A stretch of 64,000 bases of DNA from Haloarchaeobius sp. HME9146. Its GTDB lineage: Archaea; Halobacteriota; Halobacteria; Halobacteriales; Natrialbaceae. Numbering within the stretch: position 1 is the stretch's first letter; each line of letters starts with the position of its first letter. The notes below the pieces were generated by a model. That model made no database searches and had not been told where the DNA came from. It saw nothing but the letters and a program-made list of their open reading frames with translations. The DNA lies in assembly GCF_025399835.1 (NCBI RefSeq), contig NZ_JAODVR010000002.1, positions 62,001 through 126,000 of the forward strand, given 5' to 3'. A program made the position numbers and the translations under genes. Shown here in pieces: positions 46,168-63,690 of this stretch.

Positions 46168-46228
46168 GGTCGAACTATCCACGGGCATTCTGCATAAGAG
46201 TTGTCGGTCGTGGACGGTGATGTCACAG

Positions 46229-46237
46229 GTTTAAGTG
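46229..46237 (+). promoter_or_regulatory. TATA-like box of rdfA
   Basis: GTTTAAGTG 24-32 bases before ATG 46261, leaderless spacing. The divergent thuA-like box lies at 46192-46198. Confidence 0.5.
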
Positions 46238-46260
46238 CCGCGTTCACATACAGCCACCTA

Positions 46261-46884
46261 ATGACAGATGGGCAGACAGCCGGGTCGAACACGCGGACGA
46301 ACAAGGTCGACCGCGTCATCGAGGAGTACGACCTCGGCGACATCGGAGACGAACTGGAGCGACTGTGGCTCGGAGAGGGAGACGAACAGCAGAGTGTCCG
46401 GGACCTCGCGGAGTTGTTCAACAGACGGGTCCTGCAATCGGCGATAGACGCCAGTGACGTGTTCACCCTCGGCGAGAACGTCGATCACATCTACGATGCA
46501 CTCACCGGCGGGGAGTCGGAGTCAGACGACCGGACACTCATCAGGGCGCGGCTCGAACAGAACGGAATCGACGTCGAGGCGGTCGAGCGGGACTTCGTCT
46601 CGCACCAGACCATCTACCGGTATCTCAAGAACCACCGGGATGCCGAGCAGCCCGAACCGACCGACGAGGAACGGGTCGAGAAGGCCGAACAGACCATCCA
46701 GCGCCTCCGCGGCCGGACGACGGCCGTGACCGAACGCTCGCTGGAAGGACTCCAGAAGAAGGGGACCATCTCGCTCGGTGATTTCAGTGTCCTCAACGAC
46801 ATCCAGGTGCTCTGTGACGACTGCGGGCGCAGCTACGACGTGGCCGACCTCCTCGCCCGGGGTGGCTGCGAGTGCGAGACCTGA
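46261..46884 (+). CDS. rdfA: Rod-determining factor RdfA-like protein
   Basis: 207 residues. The N-terminus has the family pattern KVDRVIEEYDLGDIGDELERLW...SVRDLAELFNRRVL (15-58), a middle VERDFVSHQTIYRYLKNHR (108-126), a coiled region with TTAVTERSLEGL, and a C-terminal zinc knuckle with Cys185, Cys188, Cys203 and Cys205. In Haloferax volcanii RdfA is needed for rod shape; haloarchaea carry several paralogues. Whether this copy controls shape is unknown. It stands alone, divergent from the thuA-like gene, and is followed by a hairpin. Confidence 0.8.
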   Translation: MTDGQTAGSNTRTNKVDRVIEEYDLGDIGDELERLWLGEGDEQQSVRDLAELFNRRVLQSAIDASDVFTLGENVDHIYDALTGGESESDDRTLIRARLEQNGIDVEAVERDFVSHQTIYRYLKNHRDAEQPEPTDEERVEKAEQTIQRLRGRTTAVTERSLEGLQKKGTISLGDFSVLNDIQVLCDDCGRSYDVADLLARGGCECET

Positions 46885-47889: not shown

Positions 47890-49044
47890 TCACTCGGTGA
47901 CATTCCGGAGGCAATCGACGTGATTCAGGCCGTCTGCACCGTTGCGGTCGTTCGCCCGCCAGACCTTGCCGACGATGTCCGGTCGGCCGTCACCGTCGAC
48001 GTCCAGCACCCGTGCGCAGTGCGAGCCGAGGTTCTCATCGAGAAGCACACGGCGCTCCCAGGTCTCGCCATCGGTGCCGAGACACCACCAGCGGGGCGTC
48101 ACCGATTCCCCATCCGTCTTGTCGTTCTCCATCTCGGCCGTGACCACCTCCAGGCGTCCGTCTCCATCCAGGTCCGCCAGTTCCAGCGTGTGAAGTGCCC
48201 GTCTGTCGTCCTCGGCATCGAACAGCAATCGGTGTTCCCACGGGCCAGTGTCCGTCCTGGAGAGTACTGCCAGCCTCGCGTTCGCGTCGAGCTCTGACTC
48301 GGAGATGACGACCTCGAGGTCACCGTCGTCGTCGACGTCCCCGACAGCGATGCGGGTCTCGTGGTCCCAGTCCAGGGCCGGGTCGACGAGTGGGTGCTGC
48401 TGCCAGTCGGTCCCCTCCCCATCCACGTTCTGGAACCAGCCCTGGTTGGTGACGATGTCGAGGCCCGGGCCGTCCGAGATGTCCGCGACCGCCGTTCCAT
48501 CTCCATCCAGCCCGGACGCGACGACGGTCGGTACCCACTCGCCGTCGCTCCCTATGTCGTCGAACACGACCAGAGAATGGTCTTTGACTCGTGCGACGAT
48601 CTCCATCTCGCCATCGCCATCGACGTCCGCGGCCAGCAAGTCGTGGGGGCCGTTCTCGAATCCGTCGTAGACGACTCGGGCTGTTCCGAACGACTCCGCG
48701 GTCGGGTCTGCATCGACGACGAACAGGCGACTGCCCCACTCGCCGCAGACGATCTCGGGGCAGCCGTCACCGTCCACGTCCGTCGCAGTTGCACCGACGC
48801 CCGGGCGGAAGTCCGGCTCGAGTTCGTAGCGGTCCCAGCCGTCGGCCGTCCGGTCGTACAGGTGGTAGTACCCACCGTCGGGGGATAACCTGCCGCCGGT
48901 TGCGAACTCGTCGCGGCCGTCGCCGTCGAAGTCCGCCGCGGCGACGCCACCCCAGGCATCGTAGCCAGGTGACTCACCACCCCAGGAGATGTTGAATATC
49001 GTCGTATCCACGGTCTCGTGTTCGAACTGCAGGGCTTCGCGCAT
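47890..49044 (-). CDS. FG-GAP/VCBS beta-propeller protein without signal peptide
   Basis: 384 residues built from about six or seven repeats with calcium-loop motifs of the DxDxDG type: DFDGDGRDE, DVDGDGCPE, DVDGDGEME, DVDDDGDLE, DLDGDGRLE and DVDGDGRPD. These are FG-GAP repeats that form a beta propeller. No Sec or Tat signal and no membrane helix, unlike most such proteins, so it is predicted cytoplasmic. Such propellers occur in polysaccharide lyases (PL11 type) and in binding proteins; no lyase residues can be assigned by eye. ATG 49044 is supported by a TATA box at 49068-49078. Divergent from the Gfo/Idh/MocA gene. Confidence 0.82.
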   Translation of the reverse strand: MREALQFEHETVDTTIFNISWGGESPGYDAWGGVAAADFDGDGRDEFATGGRLSPDGGYYHLYDRTADGWDRYELEPDFRPGVGATATDVDGDGCPEIVCGEWGSRLFVVDADPTAESFGTARVVYDGFENGPHDLLAADVDGDGEMEIVARVKDHSLVVFDDIGSDGEWVPTVVASGLDGDGTAVADISDGPGLDIVTNQGWFQNVDGEGTDWQQHPLVDPALDWDHETRIAVGDVDDDGDLEVVISESELDANARLAVLSRTDTGPWEHRLLFDAEDDRRALHTLELADLDGDGRLEVVTAEMENDKTDGESVTPRWWCLGTDGETWERRVLLDENLGSHCARVLDVDGDGRPDIVGKVWRANDRNGADGLNHVDCLRNVTE

Positions 49045-49067
49045 CGCTGAGTACCTTCGCACGGGGT

Positions 49068-49078
49068 GGTAAATAATT
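49068..49078 (-). promoter_or_regulatory. TATA box of the FG-GAP propeller gene
   Basis: Minus-strand AATTATTTACC 24-34 bases before ATG 49044, leaderless spacing. Confidence 0.55.
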
Positions 49079-49251
49079 GAGGGGCAGGGGAGTTCCGGAG
49101 GAAACCGACAGCTTGCGTGTGGTTCGCGACCGAATCGAACGATACGGCCGACATCCGAACGGCCCACGTCCGGGAGCCACCGAACGCAATCGTGACTGAA
49201 TTCTGTCGTACGGATTTAAATATCGGATTCACATCCCCACGATGTAGTGAA

Positions 49252-51267: not shown

Positions 51268-52665
51268 ATGCCTTGTCCTCACGCAGGAGGCGGTAGGGTC
51301 GACGATACCGCTCCATCCGACGACCCCGATGCCTCGCGTCGGGAGTTCATGAAAGCTGCCGTGGCCATCGGCGGCGCGGCCGCGCTGTCGGCGTGCCTCT
51401 CCCGGTCACCGGAGGTCGACTCGACGACCACCACCGACACCCAACGGACCGCCAATCCCGTCGAGACACAGCGATTCGCGCAGGGAACCGACTCGCTGGA
51501 CGACCTCCCGGAACGCCAGCACGAGTGGGGCAAGTACGTCCAGGTCGACAGCTACGGGAATCCGGACTTCCCGCATCACCAGGCGTTCCTCCTGCTGAAC
51601 TACGTCGGTGAGGACACCCCGACAGAGGCCGAACGAACACGGGTCGAAGATGCGTTTCAAACCCTGGAACGGGCGTTCAAGCGCGGGGTCGGCACCGACC
51701 GACGAGCCGTTATGAACGACGGACTGCTGTTCACGGTGGGGTACGCACCGTCGTACTTCGACCGGTTCGAGGAACCGCTCCCAGACTCGGTCGATATCAT
51801 GCCCCCGGCAGCGCTCCTCGAGCGGCTCGGGGAGGACCCGGCGAACGCGACCACCTGTGATGCCGCTATCCACCTCGCGAGCGACCTCGCACCCGTCGTG
51901 CTGGCCGCCGAGGAAGCGCTCTTCGGGCGGCTGGAACACGTCAACGGCGTCGAGGTCCAGGGAAGCCTCGACGGTGTGTTCGAGACCGTCGAACGCCGGA
52001 CCGGGTTCGTCGGCTCGGGATTCCCGAAAGAACGACTTCGTGACGACATCCCGGCGCGCGCACCCGTCTCGATGGGGTTCAAGTCGAACTACCGCGACAC
52101 CTTCCCCTCCGAGGACAAGATAACCATCACCGAGGGGCCGTTCGCGGGCGGCTCGGTGCAGCAACTCTCCAAGCTCCGGAACCACCTCGACGAGTGGTAC
52201 GACCAGGACCACGAGCAGCGCGTCGAGAAGATGTTCAGCCCCGACCACAGCTCGGACACCGTGGGAGACGTCGGCGAGAACCTGGCGAGCAAGAGCGAGA
52301 TCACGCGCGAGATTGCCGACCGAACCCTCGAAGACGCCCAGACGAAAGGCCGTGTCGGACACGGGCAGAAACTCGCCCGGGTTCGAGACGACGACGACGA
52401 GCCACTCATCATGCGGCGTGGTGATTTCAACGCGGCCGCCGAGTCCGGTGCCATCCTCCACTTCGGGTCGCTCCAGCGCGGCATCGACGAGTTCGTCAAG
52501 ACCCGTGACGCGATGAACGAGGTGGACCTCGACGGAACCGGCGACGGGCCCGAGCTCCCCGACTCCGAGAACGGTATCCTCGATTTCATCGAGGTTCTCT
52601 CACGGAGTACCTTCCTGGTCCCACCCCGGCAGTACCGTTCGCTTCCTACCCCACGACCCAGCTAA
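51268..52665 (+). CDS. Tat-exported DyP-peroxidase-like protein, possibly heme-less
   Basis: 465 residues. Tat motif SRREFMK (23-29), hydrophobic core and lipobox ending SAC (Cys43). The later part follows the DyP fold by eye: GPFAGGSVQQLSKLRNHLDEWY, then RRGDFNA and LHFGSLQRGIDEFVKTRDAMN, ending in the FLVPPRQY element. The hallmarks of an active DyP are not intact: GFxDG reads GFKSN, and the segment where the heme-proximal His should be reads ARVRD. So peroxidase activity is doubtful and the family call is tentative. The gene ends one base before the CRTAC1-type gene, so the two exported proteins are co-expressed. Confidence 0.65.
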   Translation: MPCPHAGGGRVDDTAPSDDPDASRREFMKAAVAIGGAAALSACLSRSPEVDSTTTTDTQRTANPVETQRFAQGTDSLDDLPERQHEWGKYVQVDSYGNPDFPHHQAFLLLNYVGEDTPTEAERTRVEDAFQTLERAFKRGVGTDRRAVMNDGLLFTVGYAPSYFDRFEEPLPDSVDIMPPAALLERLGEDPANATTCDAAIHLASDLAPVVLAAEEALFGRLEHVNGVEVQGSLDGVFETVERRTGFVGSGFPKERLRDDIPARAPVSMGFKSNYRDTFPSEDKITITEGPFAGGSVQQLSKLRNHLDEWYDQDHEQRVEKMFSPDHSSDTVGDVGENLASKSEITREIADRTLEDAQTKGRVGHGQKLARVRDDDDEPLIMRRGDFNAAAESGAILHFGSLQRGIDEFVKTRDAMNEVDLDGTGDGPELPDSENGILDFIEVLSRSTFLVPPRQYRSLPTPRPS

Positions 52666-52666
52666 C

Positions 52667-54406
52667 ATGAGACGAGATAGACACCCACCCGGCAGTGAGA
52701 ACGGAACCAGAGACCAACCCGGGCGTGACAGGGCCGCCCGTGCAGGCGTCGGGGCTACCGCGCTCATCGGCGTGGCAATCCTGGTCGCAGCCATCGGGGT
52801 CGGGTTCGTCCTGCTGGGGGGCGCGGCCACCGACGCCAGTCCGCCGGTCGAGACGCTCGGCGAAGGGCAGTTCACCGATGTCGCACCAGAGGCGGGACTC
52901 ACGTACCAGCACAGTCCGGGCGGCCAACTGACCAACGGGAACGCGAGCCTCTACGTCACGGACTACGACCGCAATGGGTACCCGGATCTCCTGGCCTTCG
53001 GCGGCGGCGCGCCCGTCCTCTACCGGAACGACGGCGGGACGTTCTCCGAGTCAGGACAGCTCCCGGAGATAGACGGCTATCTCAAGGGTGCCCTGTTCTT
53101 CGACCAGGAGAACGACGGCTACGACGACCTGCTGTTGCTCCGAGTCGATGCGGACCCGGTCTTCCTCGCGAACCGGGACGGTTCGTTCGTCAGGGAACAG
53201 GTCGGGTTCGCGGCGGCCAACTTCACCGTGCCGTACGGGGCGTCCGCTGCTGATTTCGATGCCGACGGCTGCCTCGACGTCTTCGTCTACCAGAACGGGG
53301 ACTGGCGCGACCGCAACCCGGAGCGTTCGAACCTCCACTACGACGGCGCACCGGTGCGCGAGCTATCGCCGGTGGAAGACGACAACGGCGCGCCGAACTA
53401 CCTGTTCCGCGGGTCCTGTGGCGACGGGTTCGAGCGCGTCACCGACGCGGGCCTCGACCTGACCCACTGGACCATGGCCGCGAGTTTCGTCGACTTCACC
53501 GGCGACGGGCTGCCCGACATCCACACGGCGAACGACTTCAACAACGACGTGCTCTACGTGAACCAGGGCGACGGCACCTTCGAGAGCCACCGGATTCCGG
53601 ATACCAACAGGCACGGGATGTCCTCCGAGGTCGCAGACGTGGACGGCGACGGGTTGCTTGACGTGTTCGTGACCAACATCCAGTACAGAGAGGAGGTGTT
53701 CACCCTCTCGTCGATGCCCGCCGTGAGCCAGAAGGGCAACAACCTGCTCATCAACGACGGCAACGGGAGCTTCGAGAGCCGCGAGGTCGAATACGGGGTC
53801 GAGTACGCCAGATGGGGCTGGGCAAGTTCGTTCGTCGACCTCGACGACGATGGCGACGAGGACCTCATCCACACGACCCGGGCGCACTGGCCGAAGGAGA
53901 GCCTGCAGATGGTGGTGACGCTCCCGCACGTCTGGGAACGGACGGGCGAGTCGTTCGAGATGGTCAACGCGTCCACGCTCGGGTTCGAACGGTCGCGCGG
54001 CCGGGGAATGGCGGTGCTCGACTTCGACCGGGACGGTGACATGGACATCGCGGTCGCCGACCGCAAGGGGCCGACGAAGCTCTACGAGAACCGTGGGACG
54101 AGCAACAACGCGCTGCAGGTCACCGTCCCGAGTGACGGGCAGGTTGCGCTGGGGACCGTCGTCGAGGTGACCGTCGACGGGGACACCAGCTGGGACCTCG
54201 TGAGTGCGAAGTCGGACTTCCTCTCGCAGGACACGCGGCTCTTGCACTTCGGGCTGGGTTCGGCGACCACCGTCGACGAGGTGCGCGTCGAGTTCCCGGA
54301 CGGGACGGTCCGCGTGTTCGAGGACGTGGAAGCCAACCAGCGCCTCGTCGTGACTCCCGATGGAGAACTCGAACTGGTTTCGCTGAACGGTGACGGCGAG
54401 GACTGA
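52667..54406 (+). CDS. CRTAC1-type membrane-anchored beta-propeller (FG-GAP plus UnbV/ASPIC)
   Basis: 579 residues. An N-terminal helix (about 26-52) anchors the protein; the rest is outside the cell. FG-GAP repeats with DxDxDG-like loops (DYDRNGYPD, DQENDGYDD, DFDADGCLD, DFTGDGLPD, DVDGDGLLD, DLDDDGDED, DFDRDGDMD) form a propeller (about 65-470), followed by a UnbV/ASPIC-like C-terminal domain (HFGLGSATTVDEVRVEFPDG). This order is that of the CRTAC1/ASPIC-UnbV group known in bacteria and eukaryotes as calcium-binding surface proteins. It lies directly behind the DyP-like gene and likely works with it at the cell surface. Partner and ligand unknown. Confidence 0.85.
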   Translation: MRRDRHPPGSENGTRDQPGRDRAARAGVGATALIGVAILVAAIGVGFVLLGGAATDASPPVETLGEGQFTDVAPEAGLTYQHSPGGQLTNGNASLYVTDYDRNGYPDLLAFGGGAPVLYRNDGGTFSESGQLPEIDGYLKGALFFDQENDGYDDLLLLRVDADPVFLANRDGSFVREQVGFAAANFTVPYGASAADFDADGCLDVFVYQNGDWRDRNPERSNLHYDGAPVRELSPVEDDNGAPNYLFRGSCGDGFERVTDAGLDLTHWTMAASFVDFTGDGLPDIHTANDFNNDVLYVNQGDGTFESHRIPDTNRHGMSSEVADVDGDGLLDVFVTNIQYREEVFTLSSMPAVSQKGNNLLINDGNGSFESREVEYGVEYARWGWASSFVDLDDDGDEDLIHTTRAHWPKESLQMVVTLPHVWERTGESFEMVNASTLGFERSRGRGMAVLDFDRDGDMDIAVADRKGPTKLYENRGTSNNALQVTVPSDGQVALGTVVEVTVDGDTSWDLVSAKSDFLSQDTRLLHFGLGSATTVDEVRVEFPDGTVRVFEDVEANQRLVVTPDGELELVSLNGDGED

Positions 54407-54424: not shown

Positions 54425-55396
54425 TTATCCCGTCCGTTCCTGTGCGGCCCGGACCTGCTCGAAGTACCAGCGGATGCCGGGGTCTCCCGCGGTGCCCTGT
54501 CCGGCGAGGTCGTAGCGCATCGGCAGTTCGGGGTGCTGGCACCACCGATTGTTGTGGAAGAACACCGAGAGCCCTGGTCTGGCCGCCGCACGCTGGACTT
54601 CTCTCCCGTATGCCAGTCTCGCGTCCGGAGGGAACACACCCCGCGGGAATCGCTCCGTCCAGCCGCCGAACAACTCCACGTTGACGAGTGGCTTGTCCCG
54701 GACACCGGCTCGCACGAGTCGGTCGTGCATCGCACCCGAGTCGTTGTCGGTGTAGATCTCCTCACCGGTGTCGAACAGGCAGACATCGACTGTATCGGCG
54801 CGACCGATGACCGCGGTGGTCTCCGGGTGGAATCCGCCACCGCCGACGAGCCGGTCCGGGTCGGTCTCTTTCAGGACCGAACAGCACTCGACGATGTTGT
54901 CGGGGTCTCTGAAGTCGTAGGCGTCTGCGTGCTGGTCCCAGCCGTAGGAGCTGTGCTCGTTCGCGACGTTGACGATGACGTTCCGATACGGTTCCAGGTG
55001 GCGGGCGACCTGCCCGAGTGCTTCGTGGACGGCGTTCGCGTCCCGGAGCCCGAACGGCGCGAACTGGTAGAACACACCGACGACGAGGACCATGTCGCGT
55101 GCCGCACACGCCTCTGCGATTCGTTCCATCCGGCGACGATGGTCGGGGTCGATGCTGGAGCCGTCCGGTGCGAACGGGTCGTAGTTCGCCCCCATACACC
55201 CCATGTAGAACACCGTCACCGCGTTCACCCCGTGGGCGGTGTAGTCGTCCAGCTGGTCGATGAGGTGCTGGCATTGCTCGTCGGTCGCCGTCGCACTCGC
55301 GGTGCGGATGCCCCAGAGGTCGACCAACTCGCCGTCGAGGCGGAAGCGGTTCCCGTCGGTCGTCACCGTCGGTCCGTCGGAACGTCGTGCCGTCAT
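54425..55396 (-). CDS. Clan GH-A (TIM-barrel) glycoside hydrolase-like protein
   Basis: 323 residues. Barrel strands with GVNAVTVFYMGC, MVLVVGVFYQFAPFG, NVIVNVANEHSS with Asn146-Glu147 (acid/base on strand 4) and PLVNVELFGG with Glu241 (nucleophile on strand 7). This is the residue pattern of cellulase-type (GH5-like) enzymes; which family cannot be told. No signal peptide, so it should act on an oligosaccharide already inside the cell. It converges with the CRTAC1 gene and diverges from the transporter operon. ATG 55396 is used because the frame upstream runs antisense into the permease gene. Confidence 0.75.
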   Translation of the reverse strand: MTARRSDGPTVTTDGNRFRLDGELVDLWGIRTASATATDEQCQHLIDQLDDYTAHGVNAVTVFYMGCMGANYDPFAPDGSSIDPDHRRRMERIAEACAARDMVLVVGVFYQFAPFGLRDANAVHEALGQVARHLEPYRNVIVNVANEHSSYGWDQHADAYDFRDPDNIVECCSVLKETDPDRLVGGGGFHPETTAVIGRADTVDVCLFDTGEEIYTDNDSGAMHDRLVRAGVRDKPLVNVELFGGWTERFPRGVFPPDARLAYGREVQRAAARPGLSVFFHNNRWCQHPELPMRYDLAGQGTAGDPGIRWYFEQVRAAQERTG

Positions 55397-55549
55397 CGTG
55401 TGGAACCCACGACACCGGTGGTCGTAGCTGTATTGGGTCGACCGGCCCGAGGCCGGTCCCGAACGTGCCGGGTGCACCGAACCGGCGTGACAGAGGTACA
55501 CAGTGCCAAGGTTTATGGTGAGTATCAGCAATTGAGTAATCAAGCAGGT

Positions 55550-56620
55550 ATGCAGTACCACCTCAAGCGGATTGGCCAGGGTGTCCTCACGTTCGTCACC
55601 GCGACGACGATCGCCTTCGTGATGTATCGTATGTTGCCTGGGGGGCCCATCCAGGCGATGACTAGACAGCGATACCGTCGCTGTCTCGAACGGTTCGGTG
55701 CCGGTGCGTGCAGTATCGAGGAGATACGGAGCGAGGTCGAACTGCTCATCTCTATCGACCCCGGGCAGTCGATTCCCGAAGCGTTCGTCACGTTCATCAC
55801 GAACATCGTCGTCCACCAGGAGTTCGGGACCTCCCTGCAGTACAACGAGCCCGTCTTCGACCTGCTGTTCGCTGCGATGCCGTGGTCGGTGTTCGTCAGC
55901 ATCTGGGGGCTCGTCCTCGGGTTCACGTTCAACATCTTCTGGGGTGCACTCCTCGCCTACCGGGAGGGGAGTCGCTTCGACAAGGGGGGCACCATCTTCG
56001 CGATGGTCGGGAACTCGATTCCCTACTACGTCGCCGGTATCCTCGCGCTCGCGGTCTTCGGCTACAACTTCGGCATCTTCCCACAGGGTGGGCGATACCC
56101 GGCGGAGTTCTCGCTGGGGGCCCCGATAATCGGGACGATAATCAACGACCCGAACGTGACGCCGGGGTTCAATCCGGGGTTCATCGCTGGTGCGGCCTGG
56201 TCGGCGGCGCTCCCGGTGTTCACCGGGTTCGTCCTCGGCATCAGCGGACTCGGCATGCGCGGGAACTCGATTCGCGTGATGGAGTCCGACTACATCCGCG
56301 TCGCGAGACTGCGTGGACTGAGCGAGAGCCGTATCGCGAGCCGGTACCTGGCCCGCAACGCGGTGTTGCCCCTCTATACGACGCTCATGATAGGTATCGC
56401 GGGCATCTTCAGCAGCGGTATCATCATGGAGCGTATCTTCACCTATCCTGCGGTGGGCTGGTACACGTTCAACGCGCTGGTCCAGCGGGACTACCCGCTG
56501 TTGATGGGTGCGTTCGTGTTCTACACGGCGGTGACCATCATCGGGATACTCATCGCGGACTTCACGTACGGCTTCATCGACCCACGGGCTGGTGGAGGTG
56601 AGGAACGTGAAGCTTACTGA
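55550..56620 (+). CDS. Opp/Dpp-type ABC transporter permease (DppB-like)
   Basis: 356 residues with about six membrane helices. Features of the DppB branch: N-terminal QYHLKRIGQGVLTFVTATTIAFVMYRMLPGGP, and the coupling EAA segment MESDYIRVARLRGLSESRIASRYLARNAVLP (about 243-274), which contacts the ATPase. First gene of the transporter set. A GTTTATGGTG element at 55511-55520 is a plausible promoter with a short leader. Opp-type importers in archaea carry peptides or oligosaccharides; the flanking glycosidase and sugar-oxidoreductase genes suggest sugars here. Confidence 0.88.
   Translation: MQYHLKRIGQGVLTFVTATTIAFVMYRMLPGGPIQAMTRQRYRRCLERFGAGACSIEEIRSEVELLISIDPGQSIPEAFVTFITNIVVHQEFGTSLQYNEPVFDLLFAAMPWSVFVSIWGLVLGFTFNIFWGALLAYREGSRFDKGGTIFAMVGNSIPYYVAGILALAVFGYNFGIFPQGGRYPAEFSLGAPIIGTIINDPNVTPGFNPGFIAGAAWSAALPVFTGFVLGISGLGMRGNSIRVMESDYIRVARLRGLSESRIASRYLARNAVLPLYTTLMIGIAGIFSSGIIMERIFTYPAVGWYTFNALVQRDYPLLMGAFVFYTAVTIIGILIADFTYGFIDPRAGGGEEREAY
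56594..56600 (+). promoter_or_regulatory. Shine-Dalgarno of the second permease gene
   Basis: GGAGGTG six bases before GTG 56607; it decides this start over the earlier GTG codons at 56592 and 56598. Confidence 0.6.
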
Positions 56621-57689
56621 GACGCCTACGGACGCGGAGGACGACCGGCCGAACGTCGAGGCACTGGTCGGTGGCATCGAGGCCAAGGGTGCCGGGAACT
56701 CCGTCAGTGTCTACCAACAGAAGGTGGAGGCGAACCTGGTTGCCCCGCTTCGCATCGCCTGGTACGACTGGCGCGCGAAACTCGGTCTTTCAATCGTCGC
56801 CTTCTTCGTCTTCATGGCGACCATCTGGGAACCGATGTACGACGAAGCATACCTGAACTACGCGCCCTCGTTCATCAAGCCGTTCGACTCCGAGTACAGG
56901 CACTACATCTTCGGTATCGAGCAGTTCACCATCCCGGTCATCGGCTGGACGTACACCGGTATCTGGCAGTATCCGCTCGGCACGAACGAGGTCGGGCAGC
57001 CGATCCTGATGCGTATCGTCAACGCGGCCCCCGCGATGGCGGAACTCGTCCTCGCCGGCGGGGTCGTCTCCATCGGCGTGGCGGTCATCGTCGGGACGAC
57101 GGCGGGGTACAAGGGTGGCCGGATCGACGACGTCCTGATGGGCGCGACCGACGTGATGATGACCATCCCCGGCCTGCCGCTGGTCTTGCTGCTCGCGGCG
57201 GTGTTCCAGCCGAGCGACCCGTTCGTCCTCGGGATGATTCTCGCCATCGACAACTGGCCGGGGCTGGCCCGGTCGCTCCGGTCGCAGGTGCTGACCATCC
57301 GGAACGAGTCTTACGTCGAGTCCTCCCGCACGATGGGCGTCTCGACGGGTGGCATCCTGTTCAAGGACGTCATTCCGCAGCTCATGCCGTACATCCTCAT
57401 CTCGGCGGCGGCGGCGGGTAAGCGCGTCATCACCGAAGCTGTCGGACTGTACTTCCTCGGCTTCCTGCCACAGGGGGCACCGAACTGGGGGAAGATGATG
57501 AACGACGCGTACGAGATGGGGGCCATCACGAGCTTCGACACGTTCTACATCATCCTCTGGCCGATGCTCGTGCTCGCGATGCTGTCGTTCGGGCTGGTCA
57601 TGCTCGCACAGGGCCTCGACAAGATATTCAACCCGCGACTCCGCGCCCGGCACTCCCGCAGCGTCGGTGGCGACGGCGAGGCCGACTAG
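56607..57689 (+). CDS. Opp/Dpp-type ABC transporter permease (DppC-like)
   Basis: 360 residues. Long N-terminal cytoplasmic tail, first helix LGLSIVAFFVFMATIW (about 60-75), then the periplasm-facing loop and five helices typical of DppC. The EAA coupling segment is NESYVESSRTMGVSTGGILFKDVIPQLMPYI. The GTG start overlaps the end of dppB-like by 14 bases and has a good Shine-Dalgarno, so the two permeases are translationally coupled and should pair as a heterodimer. Confidence 0.9.
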   Translation: MKLTETPTDAEDDRPNVEALVGGIEAKGAGNSVSVYQQKVEANLVAPLRIAWYDWRAKLGLSIVAFFVFMATIWEPMYDEAYLNYAPSFIKPFDSEYRHYIFGIEQFTIPVIGWTYTGIWQYPLGTNEVGQPILMRIVNAAPAMAELVLAGGVVSIGVAVIVGTTAGYKGGRIDDVLMGATDVMMTIPGLPLVLLLAAVFQPSDPFVLGMILAIDNWPGLARSLRSQVLTIRNESYVESSRTMGVSTGGILFKDVIPQLMPYILISAAAAGKRVITEAVGLYFLGFLPQGAPNWGKMMNDAYEMGAITSFDTFYIILWPMLVLAMLSFGLVMLAQGLDKIFNPRLRARHSRSVGGDGEAD

Positions 57690-59144: not shown

Positions 59145-60281
59145 ATGAGTAACAAAGCTACGCCTCCAGGGACGGGGTTCACGCGGACGTCGGCGACGGT
59201 AACAGACGAACGGCAGTCGCCGGACCGGATACTCCGGGTCCGGAACCTCGACGTCTGGTTCGAGATGGACCGCGGCGCTGCGAAGGTGATGGACGACGTG
59301 GACATGGACATCTACCGGAACGAGATTCTCGGCATCGTCGGCGAGTCCGGGTCGGGGAAGTCGATGTTCGCCTCGGCGATGCTCGACGCGGTCCCGGAAC
59401 CGGGAGAGACCACCGGGAGCATCCGGTACTACCCGGACGACGGTCGTGACCCAATCGACGTGCTCGACCTCTCGAAGAACGAGTTGAAGTCGTTCCGCTG
59501 GGAGGAGATCTCGATGGTGTTCCAGGGGGCGATGAGTTCGTTCAACCCCACGATGACCATCGGCGGCCACTTCGAGGAGACTATCGTCGAACACGGGATG
59601 GACCTCGATAGCCAGATGGACCACGCGCGCAACCTCATTGCGGACCTCTACCTCGACCCCGATCGGGTGCTCGACGCGTACCCGCACGAACTATCGGGTG
59701 GGATGAAACAGCGCGCACTCATCGCGTTGAGTCTCGTGCTCGAACCCGACGTGCTCGTGATGGACGAGCCGACCGCTGCGCTCGACCTGTTGATGCAACA
59801 GTCAATCAAGACCATGCTTGCGACGCTGCGAGACGAGTACGACCTCACCATCATCTTCATCACCCACGACCTCCCGCTGGTCGCGGGACTGGTGGACAGG
59901 CTGGCGGTCATCTACGCGTTCGACTTCGTCGAGGCCGGGACGCGCGACGAGGTGTTGCTCGACGCGGCGCATCCCTACACACGGGCACTGCTGTCGGCGG
60001 TCCCCAGTCTGGACACGCCGGTCGACCAGATGAAACCCATCGAGGGGTCGAGTCCCGACCCCGTCAAGCGGCTCGAAGGGTGCCCGTACCACCCCCGGTG
60101 CCCGCTCGCGGACGAGCGTTGTGTCGAGTCGGACCCGGACCACTTCAGCGTCTCTGAGCGACATTCGGTGGCGTGTTTCTACTCGGACGAGGCGGCCGAG
60201 GCCGTCCCCTACACGCTCGAATCCGAACTCGAGATCGACCTCCACCTTCTCGAGGGTCAGCTACAGCGGGGGCGACAATGA
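59145..60281 (+). CDS. Opp/Dpp-type ABC transporter ATP-binding protein (DppD-like)
   Basis: 378 residues. Walker A GESGSGKS (66-73), Q-loop VFQGAMSSFNP, signature LSGGMKQRA, Walker B VLVMDEPTAALD, switch His in FITHDLP. A C-terminal oligopeptide-transporter domain has the cysteine set CPYHPRCPLADERC...VACFY. It hydrolyses ATP to drive the permease pair. Its stop overlaps the start of the next gene by four bases. The first ~25 residues are a variable extension. Confidence 0.93.
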   Translation: MSNKATPPGTGFTRTSATVTDERQSPDRILRVRNLDVWFEMDRGAAKVMDDVDMDIYRNEILGIVGESGSGKSMFASAMLDAVPEPGETTGSIRYYPDDGRDPIDVLDLSKNELKSFRWEEISMVFQGAMSSFNPTMTIGGHFEETIVEHGMDLDSQMDHARNLIADLYLDPDRVLDAYPHELSGGMKQRALIALSLVLEPDVLVMDEPTAALDLLMQQSIKTMLATLRDEYDLTIIFITHDLPLVAGLVDRLAVIYAFDFVEAGTRDEVLLDAAHPYTRALLSAVPSLDTPVDQMKPIEGSSPDPVKRLEGCPYHPRCPLADERCVESDPDHFSVSERHSVACFYSDEAAEAVPYTLESELEIDLHLLEGQLQRGRQ

Positions 60282-61627
60282 GCCGCACGTCGCCGTCGAC
60301 CGAGCCCGTGGTGGAACTCGACGACGTCCAGGTTCACTTCAATGCCCACAATAGCTCGTTCTTCGGCGAGCAGAAGGTGGTCAAGGCGGTCGACGAGGTC
60401 GACCTCACCATCTACGAGAACGACGTGGTGGTACTCGTCGGCGAGAGTGGGTGTGGGAAGACGACGCTCGGGAAGACCGCCATCGGCCTGCAGCGTCCGA
60501 CCGGTGGGAGCGTCAGATACCGGGGACAGGACGTCCACGACGCGATGGACGGGACCGGCACGGTGAACATCCCGTTCGAGCGCATCAGGCGGTCGCTCCA
60601 GATCATCCACCAGGACCCCGGTAGCTCACTCAACCCGAATCGGACTGTGTTGACGAACCTCGCCGTGCCGATGAAGAAGTACCGACCCGACCTGGGGTCG
60701 GCACAGCGCGAGGAGGTCGTCCACAAGCTCCTCGAACGCGTTGGAATCACGCCGGCGACCGACTACGCGACCCGGTTCCCTCACCAGCTCAGTGGTGGGG
60801 AGCAACAGCGGGTCGCACTCGCGCGGTCACTGCTGATGGAACCGGACCTCATCCTCGCGGACGAGGCGGTCAGTGCACTGGACGTCTCCCTGCGCGTGCA
60901 GATGATGGACCTGATGCTGGACCTGCGTGACTTGTTCGACACCTCCTATCTGGTGGTCTCGCACGACTTCGCCAACGCGCGGTACCTCGCCGAGAAGGCA
61001 GACGGTCGAATCGGCGTGATGTACCTCGGGAAGCTCGTCGAGATCGGGACCGTCGACGAACTCATCCAGAACCCGAAACACCCCTACACGCAGGTTCTCA
61101 TCTGGTCGACGCCGATGCTCGACCCGCGGTCGGCGGCGGAGATGTCGACGGACGACCCGCCGGTCAGGAGCATCGACATCCCGACGCCGGACGACCCGCC
61201 GGGTGGCTGCCACTTCCACACCCGGTGTCCGGTCATCATCCCGCCTGCCGACCTGGATATCGAGCAGGACACCTACAACGACATCATCGACCTGCGCCTC
61301 GACATCGAGGATGAGGACGTAGATGTCGAACGGGTATGGGCAGCGCTGGAGGCGGACAAGCCGGTGCCATCGGAGTCGGAGCGGTCCGAACTGGCGTCGG
61401 AATTCGCGGTCACGGCCCGGGAGCTGTTCGTCGATGCCGACCTGGACGATGAGCACCGGGAGGCAATCGAGGGTGCACTGGAGGCTGTGGCCATCGGCGA
61501 TTGGGAGCACGCCGCGGAAACACTACGCTCGAAGTACGAGAGCGTCTGCGAGCGAAAGCAGCCCCAGTTGCAGTCGGACCACCCGGTCGCGTGCCACCTG
61601 TACGACACCGAGGACGTGTCCGAGTAG
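60278..61627 (+). CDS. Opp/Dpp-type ABC transporter ATP-binding protein (DppF-like) with long C-terminal insert
   Basis: 449 residues, about 120 longer than the usual DppF. Walker A GESGCGKT (55-62), IIHQDPGSSLNP Q-loop, signature LSGGEQQRVALARSL, Walker B LILADEAVSALD, switch VSHDFA. The oligopeptide C-terminal motif is split: CHFHTRCPVIIP near 310 and VCERKQPQLQSDHPVACHL at the end are separated by about 105 residues of acidic helical sequence (DLRLDIEDEDVDVERVWAAL ... DDEHREAIEGALEAVAIG). Second ATPase of the pair; translationally coupled to DppD-like. Confidence 0.92.
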   Translation: MSRTSPSTEPVVELDDVQVHFNAHNSSFFGEQKVVKAVDEVDLTIYENDVVVLVGESGCGKTTLGKTAIGLQRPTGGSVRYRGQDVHDAMDGTGTVNIPFERIRRSLQIIHQDPGSSLNPNRTVLTNLAVPMKKYRPDLGSAQREEVVHKLLERVGITPATDYATRFPHQLSGGEQQRVALARSLLMEPDLILADEAVSALDVSLRVQMMDLMLDLRDLFDTSYLVVSHDFANARYLAEKADGRIGVMYLGKLVEIGTVDELIQNPKHPYTQVLIWSTPMLDPRSAAEMSTDDPPVRSIDIPTPDDPPGGCHFHTRCPVIIPPADLDIEQDTYNDIIDLRLDIEDEDVDVERVWAALEADKPVPSESERSELASEFAVTARELFVDADLDDEHREAIEGALEAVAIGDWEHAAETLRSKYESVCERKQPQLQSDHPVACHLYDTEDVSE

Positions 61628-61647
61628 TCGCGGTCGGCCCGTCCCAT

Positions 61648-61665
61648 TCTCTCTTTCTTTGTTTC
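61648..61665 (+). terminator. T-rich terminator after the ATPase genes
   Basis: TTCTCTCTTTCTTTGTTT beginning about 20 bases after the DppF-like stop. Confidence 0.4.
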
Positions 61666-61729
61666 CCAGTGACAGGCGAGCGGTCTCCCCTCCCGGGACT
61701 ACCGATAATGCGCAAATTATTACAATATG

Positions 61730-61737
61730 TTTATTAC
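61730..61737 (+). promoter_or_regulatory. TATA box of the Opp-type substrate-binding protein gene
   Basis: TTTATTAC within an A/T-rich block (61714-61740), 22-29 bases before ATG 61759, fitting separate leaderless transcription of the binding protein. Confidence 0.55.
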
Positions 61738-61758
61738 TATGGGATAGGTTCTCTGACC

Positions 61759-63690
61759 ATGGTTGACGATAGTCATCCTCATAGCGGAGAGGGCGACCCG
61801 CGATGGCGTGGGCTTCGCCGGCGACAGTATCTCGCGGCAATCGGCGCAGCTGCGGGAGTGGGACTCGCGGGTTGCAGTTCTCAGGCCGAGGACACACAGA
61901 CCAGCGAGGACGGGAACGACGAAGGTGGAAGCACCGAGACCTCGAGCGGTGGGACCGAGGAAGGTGGGTCCGAGAGTTCTGGTCGTGGCCCGGCCGTCGA
62001 CCCGACGATGAACCTCATCACGGGTACCGCACCACAGGACATGAACTTCTGGCCGTTCTTCGGCCGGAGCAACATGGACTCGATATACTTCCTGCCGCTC
62101 CAGACCTGGTACGGGGCCGGGCAACTGGACCAGTACACCGGTGGCGAGTACGATGGGCTCCTGGTCGCGGAATCGCGACTCATCAACGACTTCAGCACCT
62201 GGGAGATCAAGCTGGACACCGAGCACGACTGGACGTGGCACGACGGTGACTCGGTGACCATCGACGACATGTACGAGTACGACAAGTACTTCCACGAATA
62301 CGACAAGCTCCTGGGCAACACCCCGGACTGGAAGAGCGTCACGAAGGTCGACGACACGACCATCCACCGTGAACTCCACGAGCGCACTGCACCGTTCGCG
62401 TTCTTCCACACCAACCAGCGGCCCAACATCCACTTCCAGGGCAAACACGCCAAGAAGTTCCGCGAGATGATGGAGGACGCCTCGACGGAGAAAGAGGCAG
62501 CCGACATCAACAAACAGGCCACCGAAGCCAACGAGATTGGCTTCGAGGACGCTGTCGGGAACGGGATGTTCGAGGTCTCCGAGGTCGCAGACGACCGGGT
62601 GGTCTACTCGAAGTACGAGGACCACCCGTTCGCCGACCAGCAGAACATCGAGAACATCGAGATCCTGTTCCGTGGGGACGACTCCGGCTTCCAGCTGGCG
62701 TTCCAGAACGACCAGATCGACCTCACCTTCGAGGAGCCGAACCCCCAGCAGACCCAGTATCCGGACGACGTGAGCTACGTCACGAAGCCACAGCCGCGTG
62801 GTGAGGTGTACATGCTCAACCAGCACAACAAACACCTGGCCAAGGTCGAGGTGCGCCGCGCGATGGCGTACTACCTCGACTCGCAGGCTATCGTGAACAA
62901 CACGAACGGCGCGGCTGTTACCACGCAGACCGGTGCGGCCCCGGTCGTGCTGGACCAGTGGCTTCCGGACCCGAGCGTCGCGGACGACTACATCCAGTAC
63001 GGCGCGACGCGCCAGCCCGAGAAAGCCGCGGCCGAGCTCCAGAAGGCGGGCTACTCGAAGAACAGCGACGGTATCTGGGAGGACGAAAGCGGCGACACGC
63101 TCTCGTTCATCATCAGGACCTACGACTGGCGGCCGACCGTGGGTCGTACCATCAACAGCCAGATGCGCCGCGCCGGCTTCGACGTCGACGCGAAGGTCAT
63201 CGGGGCCCAGGAGTACCTCAACGAAGTGTACAACCAGCCGCCGGAGTCCGGTGTCTGGGACATGATCTTCGACTTCCACGCGGGCAGCATCAACCACCCG
63301 ACCCACAGCTACGCTGACTCGATAAGCGAGCTGAAGCTGACGAACGACGACGGGAGCCCCGGCTGGGCGAACCGCGACGTCAACCCGACGGTCCCCTCGA
63401 CCGTCGGTGCCGAAGAGGTCAGCGGGTCTGGCAAGACGCTCGACCTGCGCGCGCTCCAGCGCACGCTCGCCTCGCCGGACTCCTCCGTCGAGGAGACCAA
63501 ACAGGCGACGCACGACCTGGCGTGGTACTGGAACTACTCGGTGCCCTCCCTCGTCTTCAAGACGAGCCAGGCAGCGTGGGCATTCGACGACACCAACTTC
63601 GTCATGGAGGACTACGACGGCGACGGCTACGCCGACCTCGGGATGTCCTACAACTTCAGCAAGCCGACGGTGTACGGCGTCGAAAAGTAA
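61759..63690 (+). CDS. Opp/Dpp-type ABC transporter substrate-binding lipoprotein
   Basis: 643 residues. Tat-type start with RRRQYLAAIG (20-29) and lipobox ending LAGC (Cys39), then a Ser/Gly/Glu linker (about 45-75). The mature domain is SBP family 5: LLVAESRLINDFSTWEIKL, HDWTWHDGDSVTIDDM, VEVRRAMAYYLDSQAIVNN. It captures a peptide or oligosaccharide outside the cell for the permease pair upstream. It is transcribed from its own promoter, which usually gives the excess of binding protein these systems need. Sequence alone does not tell peptide from sugar. Confidence 0.92.
   Translation: MVDDSHPHSGEGDPRWRGLRRRQYLAAIGAAAGVGLAGCSSQAEDTQTSEDGNDEGGSTETSSGGTEEGGSESSGRGPAVDPTMNLITGTAPQDMNFWPFFGRSNMDSIYFLPLQTWYGAGQLDQYTGGEYDGLLVAESRLINDFSTWEIKLDTEHDWTWHDGDSVTIDDMYEYDKYFHEYDKLLGNTPDWKSVTKVDDTTIHRELHERTAPFAFFHTNQRPNIHFQGKHAKKFREMMEDASTEKEAADINKQATEANEIGFEDAVGNGMFEVSEVADDRVVYSKYEDHPFADQQNIENIEILFRGDDSGFQLAFQNDQIDLTFEEPNPQQTQYPDDVSYVTKPQPRGEVYMLNQHNKHLAKVEVRRAMAYYLDSQAIVNNTNGAAVTTQTGAAPVVLDQWLPDPSVADDYIQYGATRQPEKAAAELQKAGYSKNSDGIWEDESGDTLSFIIRTYDWRPTVGRTINSQMRRAGFDVDAKVIGAQEYLNEVYNQPPESGVWDMIFDFHAGSINHPTHSYADSISELKLTNDDGSPGWANRDVNPTVPSTVGAEEVSGSGKTLDLRALQRTLASPDSSVEETKQATHDLAWYWNYSVPSLVFKTSQAAWAFDDTNFVMEDYDGDGYADLGMSYNFSKPTVYGVEK

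Follow-up and report, generated by a model that had tools for sequence, protein, structure and literature searches.

A DUF7405 protein of predicted DyP fold is paired with a CRTAC1-type propeller, often beside an ABC importer, in haloarchaea

The heme site of the DyP-type peroxidases (DyPs) is built from three residues, a proximal His, the distal Asp of a GxxDG motif, and a distal Arg; one of these enzymes, EfeB, is a type-A DyP that is exported by the twin-arginine translocation (Tat) pathway and acts in iron uptake (PMC7611857). In Streptomyces, the Tat-exported DyP DtpA is needed for the maturation of GlxA and for morphogenesis (PMC4736821). As for propellers of the CRTAC1 type, a gene of this kind lies between homologues of hydrazine synthase subunits in bacteria (PMC12758564). 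Here we describe a locus of the haloarchaeon Haloarchaeobius sp. HME9146 in which a CRTAC1-type propeller is encoded directly beside an exported protein of the Pfam family DUF7405. The window that we analyzed is a stretch of 64,000 nucleotides (NZ_JAODVR010000002.1, positions 62,001 to 126,000) on contig C2 of an assembly that has three contigs and totals 4.19 Mb. The two genes and the residues that matter most for the argument are:

51268-52665, + strand: DUF7405 protein, 465 aa (PF24152, AlphaFold model, PDB fold matches)
51337-51396, + strand: Tat motif (R24 R25) to lipobox Cys (C43) (TIGR01409; conservation in 71 sequences)
52084-52086, + strand: Ser273, where DyPs have the distal Asp of the GFxDG motif (S or A, never D, in 72 sequences)
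52360-52362, + strand: His365, putative proximal heme ligand (71/71; TyrA alignment)
52414-52416, + strand: Arg383, putative distal Arg (71/71; aligned with the invariant DyP Arg)
52667-54406, + strand: CRTAC1-type propeller, 579 aa (PF13517, PF07593)

A first-pass annotation made from the DNA alone had placed two genes here, one base apart. Both open reading frames are indeed at these coordinates, and a single base separates the TAA of the DUF7405 gene (52663-52665) from the ATG of the propeller gene (52667). The start at ATG 51268 is supported because deep relatives of the DUF7405 protein likewise begin with M-x-C-P-H/F (MPCPH, MPCPF, or MGCPH). By its sequence, the product of 51268-52665 is a full-length member of DUF7405, matching PF24152 with E 1.4e-120 and 402.8 bits against a cut-off of 27.1, over profile positions 1-347 of 347. 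The protein carries the Tat motif SRREFMK (RRxFMK type) and the lipobox ALSAC, and it matches TIGR01409 above the cut-off; in an alignment of 71 DUF7405 sequences, R24 and R25 are invariant and C43 is conserved in at least 90%. The Tat signal read in the first pass is a nearly invariant trait of the family, and with these export signals established, export in the folded state and a lipid anchor are to be expected.

Searching the PDB with the single DUF7405 sequence gave nothing useful. We built an AlphaFold model from the 71-sequence alignment, with a predicted local distance difference test score (pLDDT) of 90.6 and a predicted template-modelling score (pTM) of 0.90. All of the 50 best PDB matches listed by Foldseek are DyPs; the best has an E-value of 2.6e-15, a probability of 1.00, and a template-modelling score of about 0.7 by target length. 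The predicted structure settles the DyP fold of DUF7405, and the DyP-like ending suspected earlier is part of it. The Dyp_perox Pfam model does not match the protein, and PF20628, the model of the DyP C-terminal part, is found in none of 59 haloarchaeal genomes; haloarchaea may thus have the DyP fold in the form of DUF7405. DUF7405 is present in 51 of 61 relatives and, among 14 control genomes, only in Haloferax volcanii; some homologues are publicly annotated as DUF7405 or as 'Dyp-type peroxidase (domain-containing)'. A Streptomyces plasmid (L155:5989-7062) also encodes a DUF7405 protein that has the same Ser, His, and Arg and shows no obvious export signal; its gene seems to share an operon with oxidoreductase genes.

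The DyP heme site is kept in part. At position 273, where the window protein reads GFKS, all 72 sequences compared (70 relatives, the window protein, and the Streptomyces homologue) have Ser or Ala, never Asp; hhalign registers GFKS with the GFVD of DyPs, setting Ser273 on the Asp, in a comparison that is non-significant by itself. We rejected the idea that the loss of Asp is special to the DUF7405 proteins paired with a propeller; it is a family trait, found in unpaired copies too. In contrast, His365, Arg383, and Arg384 are invariant in all 71 aligned DUF7405 proteins, which are 40-54% identical to the window protein, and are shared by the Streptomyces homologue. In a marginal alignment (E 0.26) with the DyP TyrA (2hag), His365 falls on the proximal His and Arg383 on the distal Arg, and the spacing of 18 residues between the two is identical in TyrA; hhalign also puts Arg383 on the invariant DyP Arg but does not align the His exactly. 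The proximal His and distal Arg of the DyP type are thus probably present. The first-pass annotation, which saw a protein without heme hallmarks, was right that the GFxDG motif is altered and most likely wrong that the proximal-His segment is, as His365 is invariant. An intact heme site, which it had named as the finding that would speak against it, is half there: His and Arg appear to be kept and the Asp alone is lost.

A mutant enzyme indicates what such a site might do. In KpDyP of K. pneumoniae, the D143A mutation leaves heme and architecture intact but impairs normal Compound I formation (PMC6153280), and DUF7405 is therefore expected to be a heme protein and a poor classical peroxidase. 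Judged from both alignment and model, heme binding through His365 and Arg383 is likely. Between the positions of the DyP Asp and His, Glu282 is invariant and the motif MF[CS]PxH (322-327) nearly so; these might form a different distal site, in which Glu282 might stand in for the missing Asp.

The second protein of the pair matches PF13517 (FG-GAP_3; E 6.5e-39) in seven stretches and, toward its C-terminus, PF07593 (UnbV_ASPIC; E 5.9e-17, above cut-off, aa 494-560). It has a hydrophobic N-terminal membrane anchor and seven D-x(3,4)-G-x2-D loops that are of a calcium-binding type by sequence. The closest solved structure is cartilage acidic protein 1 (CRTAC1; 9etn, E 2e-13), and homologues are publicly annotated as 'CRTAC1 family protein'. 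These results bear out the membrane-anchored propeller with a UnbV/ASPIC domain of the first reading. Such propellers are rare: of 392 haloarchaeal genomes, 48 have one. About 2 kb upstream of the pair (47890-49167, - strand) is a gene for a second FG-GAP repeat protein, which has neither an ASPIC domain nor an evident export signal.

We asked how often the two genes are neighbors in a sample of genomes of the order, counting as good those with a completeness of 90% or more and a contamination of 5% or less. In 36 of the 40 good haloarchaeal genomes with a propeller, DUF7405 stands directly beside it. The order is mostly tandem with DUF7405 first, the gene ends typically lying between a 3-base overlap and 4 bases apart (-3 to +4); convergent and divergent orders exist as well, so the adjacency has survived rearrangement. 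The source genome itself holds a second pair (C2:179163-182095). Paired DUF7405 proteins, along with one unpaired copy and two nearby ones, fall into one clade, which has a value of 96 in the Shimodaira-Hasegawa-like approximate likelihood ratio test (SH-aLRT), and the paired/unpaired label changes twice on the tree versus 24 times in shuffles. This dedicated subfamily spans many haloarchaeal families, which suggests from the sequences that the unit moved by horizontal transfer. In a mirror-tree analysis over 35 pairs, the distances of the two proteins correlate with r 0.886, versus a maximum of 0.295 in 2000 shuffles. This correlation speaks for joint inheritance, not for contact; a physical complex is plausible. 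Whether the pair is kept as neighbors was a check proposed with the first-pass annotation, and the frequency of pairing, the three gene orders, the correlated divergence, and the dedicated DUF7405 clade all answer it in the affirmative.

The other four good genomes (G023, G240, G352, G355) have next to the propeller a different exported lipoprotein of about 450 residues, which also stands beside the propeller in two incomplete genomes (G063, G065). This alternative partner (loci L130, L131, L132, L133, L138, and L139) is homologous to vanadium-dependent haloperoxidases (VHPOs; profile E 3.1e-31 to 4cit), an assignment made from sequence homology, as its model, with a pLDDT of 58.6, is too poor for use. 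The VHPO-like protein occurs in 10 of 392 genomes and adjoins the propeller in six. The acid-base His of the SGH motif is Leu in all ten proteins read; propeller-linked copies have STL or AGL and solitary relatives SGL. Loss of the His as a special feature of the propeller-linked copies was therefore rejected, since the solitary copies have lost it too. As read, loss of the acid-base residue is a trait of both partner families and not of linked copies only. Because the four exceptions have this VHPO-like partner, the propeller has a neighbor of peroxidase-type fold with a replaced acid-base residue in 40 of 40 good genomes. None of the four plasmid loci read has a CRTAC1 gene beside bacterial VHPO homologues, so the propeller-VHPO pairing is shown in haloarchaea only.

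On the 3' side of the window pair is an Opp/Dpp-type ATP-binding cassette (ABC) importer comprising two permeases, two oligo_HPY ATPases, and one family-5 binding lipoprotein:

54425-55411, - strand: TIM-barrel glycosidase-like protein, encoded between the pair and the importer (PF00150 Cellulase at E 0.002, a weak match that misses the cut-off)
54533-56620, + strand: Opp/Dpp-type ABC permease (PF00528, E 5.6e-24; true start inside the open reading frame)
56592-57689, + strand: Opp/Dpp-type ABC permease (PF00528, E 2.4e-25)
59145-60281, + strand: ABC ATPase with oligo_HPY C-terminus (PF00005 and PF08352)
60173-61627, + strand: ABC ATPase with oligo_HPY C-terminus (PF00005 and PF08352; true start inside the open reading frame)
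61501-63690, + strand: family-5 solute-binding lipoprotein (PF00496, E 6.8e-37; true start inside the open reading frame)

We compared the surroundings of paired and unpaired genes, using flanks of about 7-10 kb for the ABC genes; in the iron-gene count, the flanks of some unpaired loci are as short as 1.5 kb, which can only undercount. Of 38 paired loci, 29 have related Opp/Dpp ATPases no more than about 9 kb away, as against 0 of 23 DUF7405-only and 0 of 9 propeller-only loci. A homologue of glycoside hydrolase family 3 (GH3) is present in 15 of these 38 paired loci, and a TrmB-type regulator in 10; one locus in Halobaculum has xylan and glucuronate genes, and one in Natronosalvus a protein of family GH81. 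Of 57 loci with an unpaired DUF7405 gene, about 25 instead have DUF7350/Fe2+-transport proteins next to it (e.g., L140:7827-10267), a context resembling that of EfeB, whereas none of the 38 paired DUF7405 genes has an Fe2+-transport protein beside it. These counts show the importer, GH3, and TrmB context of the paired group. The importer and the sugar genes nearby, which the first-pass annotation had missed, are the main clue to function.

Several further genes were seen at these loci. The product of 54425-55411 (- strand) is probably a TIM-barrel glycosidase, its GH5 match being sub-threshold only, and a DUF6298-like protein adjoins the propeller in another locus (L105). On the 5' side of the window pair are ThuA, Gfo/Idh, CN-hydrolase, and IclR-type genes, together with a homologue of the Rod-determining factor RdfA (46201-46884, + strand); in Halobaculum (L158), rdfA and an SMC-like gene are likewise found just upstream of the pair. 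A divergent DUF7405 gene of the source genome overlaps a gene for a methyl-accepting chemotaxis protein (MCP) transducer by 4 bases (L141:6417-10084; G000:C1, about 770-774 kb), and in four convergent pairs the distance from the DUF7405 gene to an MCP transducer gene is 170-870 bases.

The explanation that we favor, with a probability of about 0.5, is that an EfeB-like DyP relative and a propeller form one extracellular module recruited into glycan uptake. The DUF7405 product would be exported folded via Tat and then lipid-anchored. Divergent but related to the DyP/EfeB peroxidases that Tat exports, it would probably still hold heme via His365 and Arg383 while lacking the distal acid that makes DyPs fast peroxidases. 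Against it on the cell surface would most likely sit the membrane-anchored, calcium-loop propeller of the CRTAC1/ASPIC kind, binding or presenting a polymer or partner in a calcium-dependent manner. The DyP-like part most likely binds heme for slow oxidation, binding, or redox sensing; it could be an oxidase of low speed, a subunit for binding or sensing, or a factor that helps the propeller to mature. Together they would capture or modify a glycan-type substrate outside the cell, and oligomers would then pass to the neighboring family-5 ABC importer, for glycosidases such as GH3. That the substrate is of the glycan type we infer from gene context only. In the simplest history, an EfeB-like exported DyP relative, common in haloarchaea, may have resided near iron genes until one subfamily joined a propeller and an oligosaccharide importer and then spread.

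Several observations weigh against this explanation. ABC ATPases are absent within reach in 9 of the 38 paired loci, among them the second pair of the source genome, which adjoins an IclR-type regulator. The cargo of family-5 binding proteins can also be peptides, nickel, or heme, so the importer is no proof of sugar. In addition, a PDB profile search with DUF7405 reached TyrA at a marginal E of 0.26, and hhalign against 11 bacterial DyPs gave a non-significant probability of 1.2%, for which reason fold comparison was used for the DyP assignment. The residue register of the heme site rests on that fold and the marginal alignment.

The foremost alternative is iron or heme acquisition, in which an EfeB-like, DyP-like protein would handle heme or ferrous iron and the Dpp-type importer would take up heme or iron complexes. 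It would suit the iron-transport neighbors of so many unpaired copies, the role of EfeB as a Tat-exported DyP in iron uptake, and the fact that Dpp-type importers can carry heme. We nevertheless think it unlikely, for paired loci have GH3, GH81, TrmB, and xylan-pathway genes in place of any iron-transport protein. Next in our ranking, and also improbable, is a view close to that of the first-pass annotation, namely that DUF7405 is a non-heme scaffold, a degenerate DyP fold that only binds the propeller or serves it in adhesion. The putative heme His and Arg, kept in all 71 sequences at 40-54% identity, would be superfluous in a scaffold, even if the lack of the distal Asp in every homologue, and of the catalytic His in all VHPO-like members read, would agree with one.

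The tandem genes with near-overlapping ends suggest coupled production, and this would fit a redox or cofactor maturation role: the DyP-like protein would help to mature the propeller, or some other exported oxidase, in the way that DtpA serves GlxA, itself a galactose-oxidase-type propeller. This idea we rate lower again: a radical-copper site is not known from the CRTAC1 propeller, the annotated loci that we read showed no Sco-type copper chaperone, and DtpA is an active DyP peroxidase whereas DUF7405 lacks the Asp. Finally, the MCP genes described above raise the idea that the pair binds ligands for a chemotaxis system, comparable to the lipoprotein-transducer pairs BasB/BasT and CosB/CosT, with the 4-base overlap and the four convergent pairs speaking for it; most pairs, including that of the window, have no MCP nearby, and we consider it very improbable.

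A wider generalization of the glycan-uptake module is possible though doubtful. CRTAC1-type propellers might be dedicated partners of exported peroxidase-fold proteins with a replaced acid-base catalyst (DUF7405, VHPO-like, and perhaps heme complexes elsewhere), forming surface complexes in which a heme or oxyanion pocket serves a purpose apart from classical peroxidation, such as binding, sensing, or oxidizing glycans in polysaccharide uptake.

Our literature search returned no mention of DUF7405, nor of CRTAC1 together with haloarchaea. Both protein families are already defined, and the module and its context appear undescribed; the earlier remark that the function is undescribed holds in the literature searched, though single genes are already annotated. 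DUF7405 is present in most haloarchaea with no described function found, and CRTAC1/ASPIC propellers are without a settled microbial role. The split in context, iron genes on one side and propeller, ABC importer, and glycosidases on the other, gives directly testable predictions for both. If the glycan-uptake explanation is true, a peroxidase fold that lost its acid catalyst and kept its putative heme ligands was reused in a new surface module, and an oxidoreductase-like component was added to archaeal polysaccharide utilization.

Compared with known systems, the window protein is closest to the haloarchaeal DUF7405 proteins, with which it shares the full-length family match, the Tat lipoprotein layout, and the invariant His and Arg. 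The paired members differ from the rest in forming a separate clade with propeller and ABC importer, where unpaired members are often beside iron-transport proteins. With the Tat-exported DyPs EfeB and DtpA, DUF7405 has in common the fold, Tat export, and the putative proximal His and distal Arg. It departs from DyPs in the replacement of the distal Asp by Ser or Ala, in not being recognized by the DyP Pfam model, and in a longer stretch from a conserved Trp to the His, which contains the conserved MF[CS]PxH motif. By analogy, DtpA-GlxA of Streptomyces comes closest as a functional precedent, since there a Tat-exported DyP is linked in function to an exported propeller enzyme (PMC4736821); GlxA, however, is a copper radical oxidase, and CRTAC1 is not known to be an enzyme. 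The hydrazine-synthase-type loci resemble ours in having a CRTAC1/FG-GAP gene beside an exported heme redox complex and, in one clade, genes for substrate-binding proteins nearby (PMC12758564); they differ in their c-type hemes, their other partners, and their bacterial hosts. Human CRTAC1 and the UnbV-type protein of Streptomyces enediyne clusters share FG-GAP repeats and the UnbV_ASPIC domain with the window propeller, which, unlike them, is archaeal, membrane-anchored, and genetically tied to a DyP-like protein.

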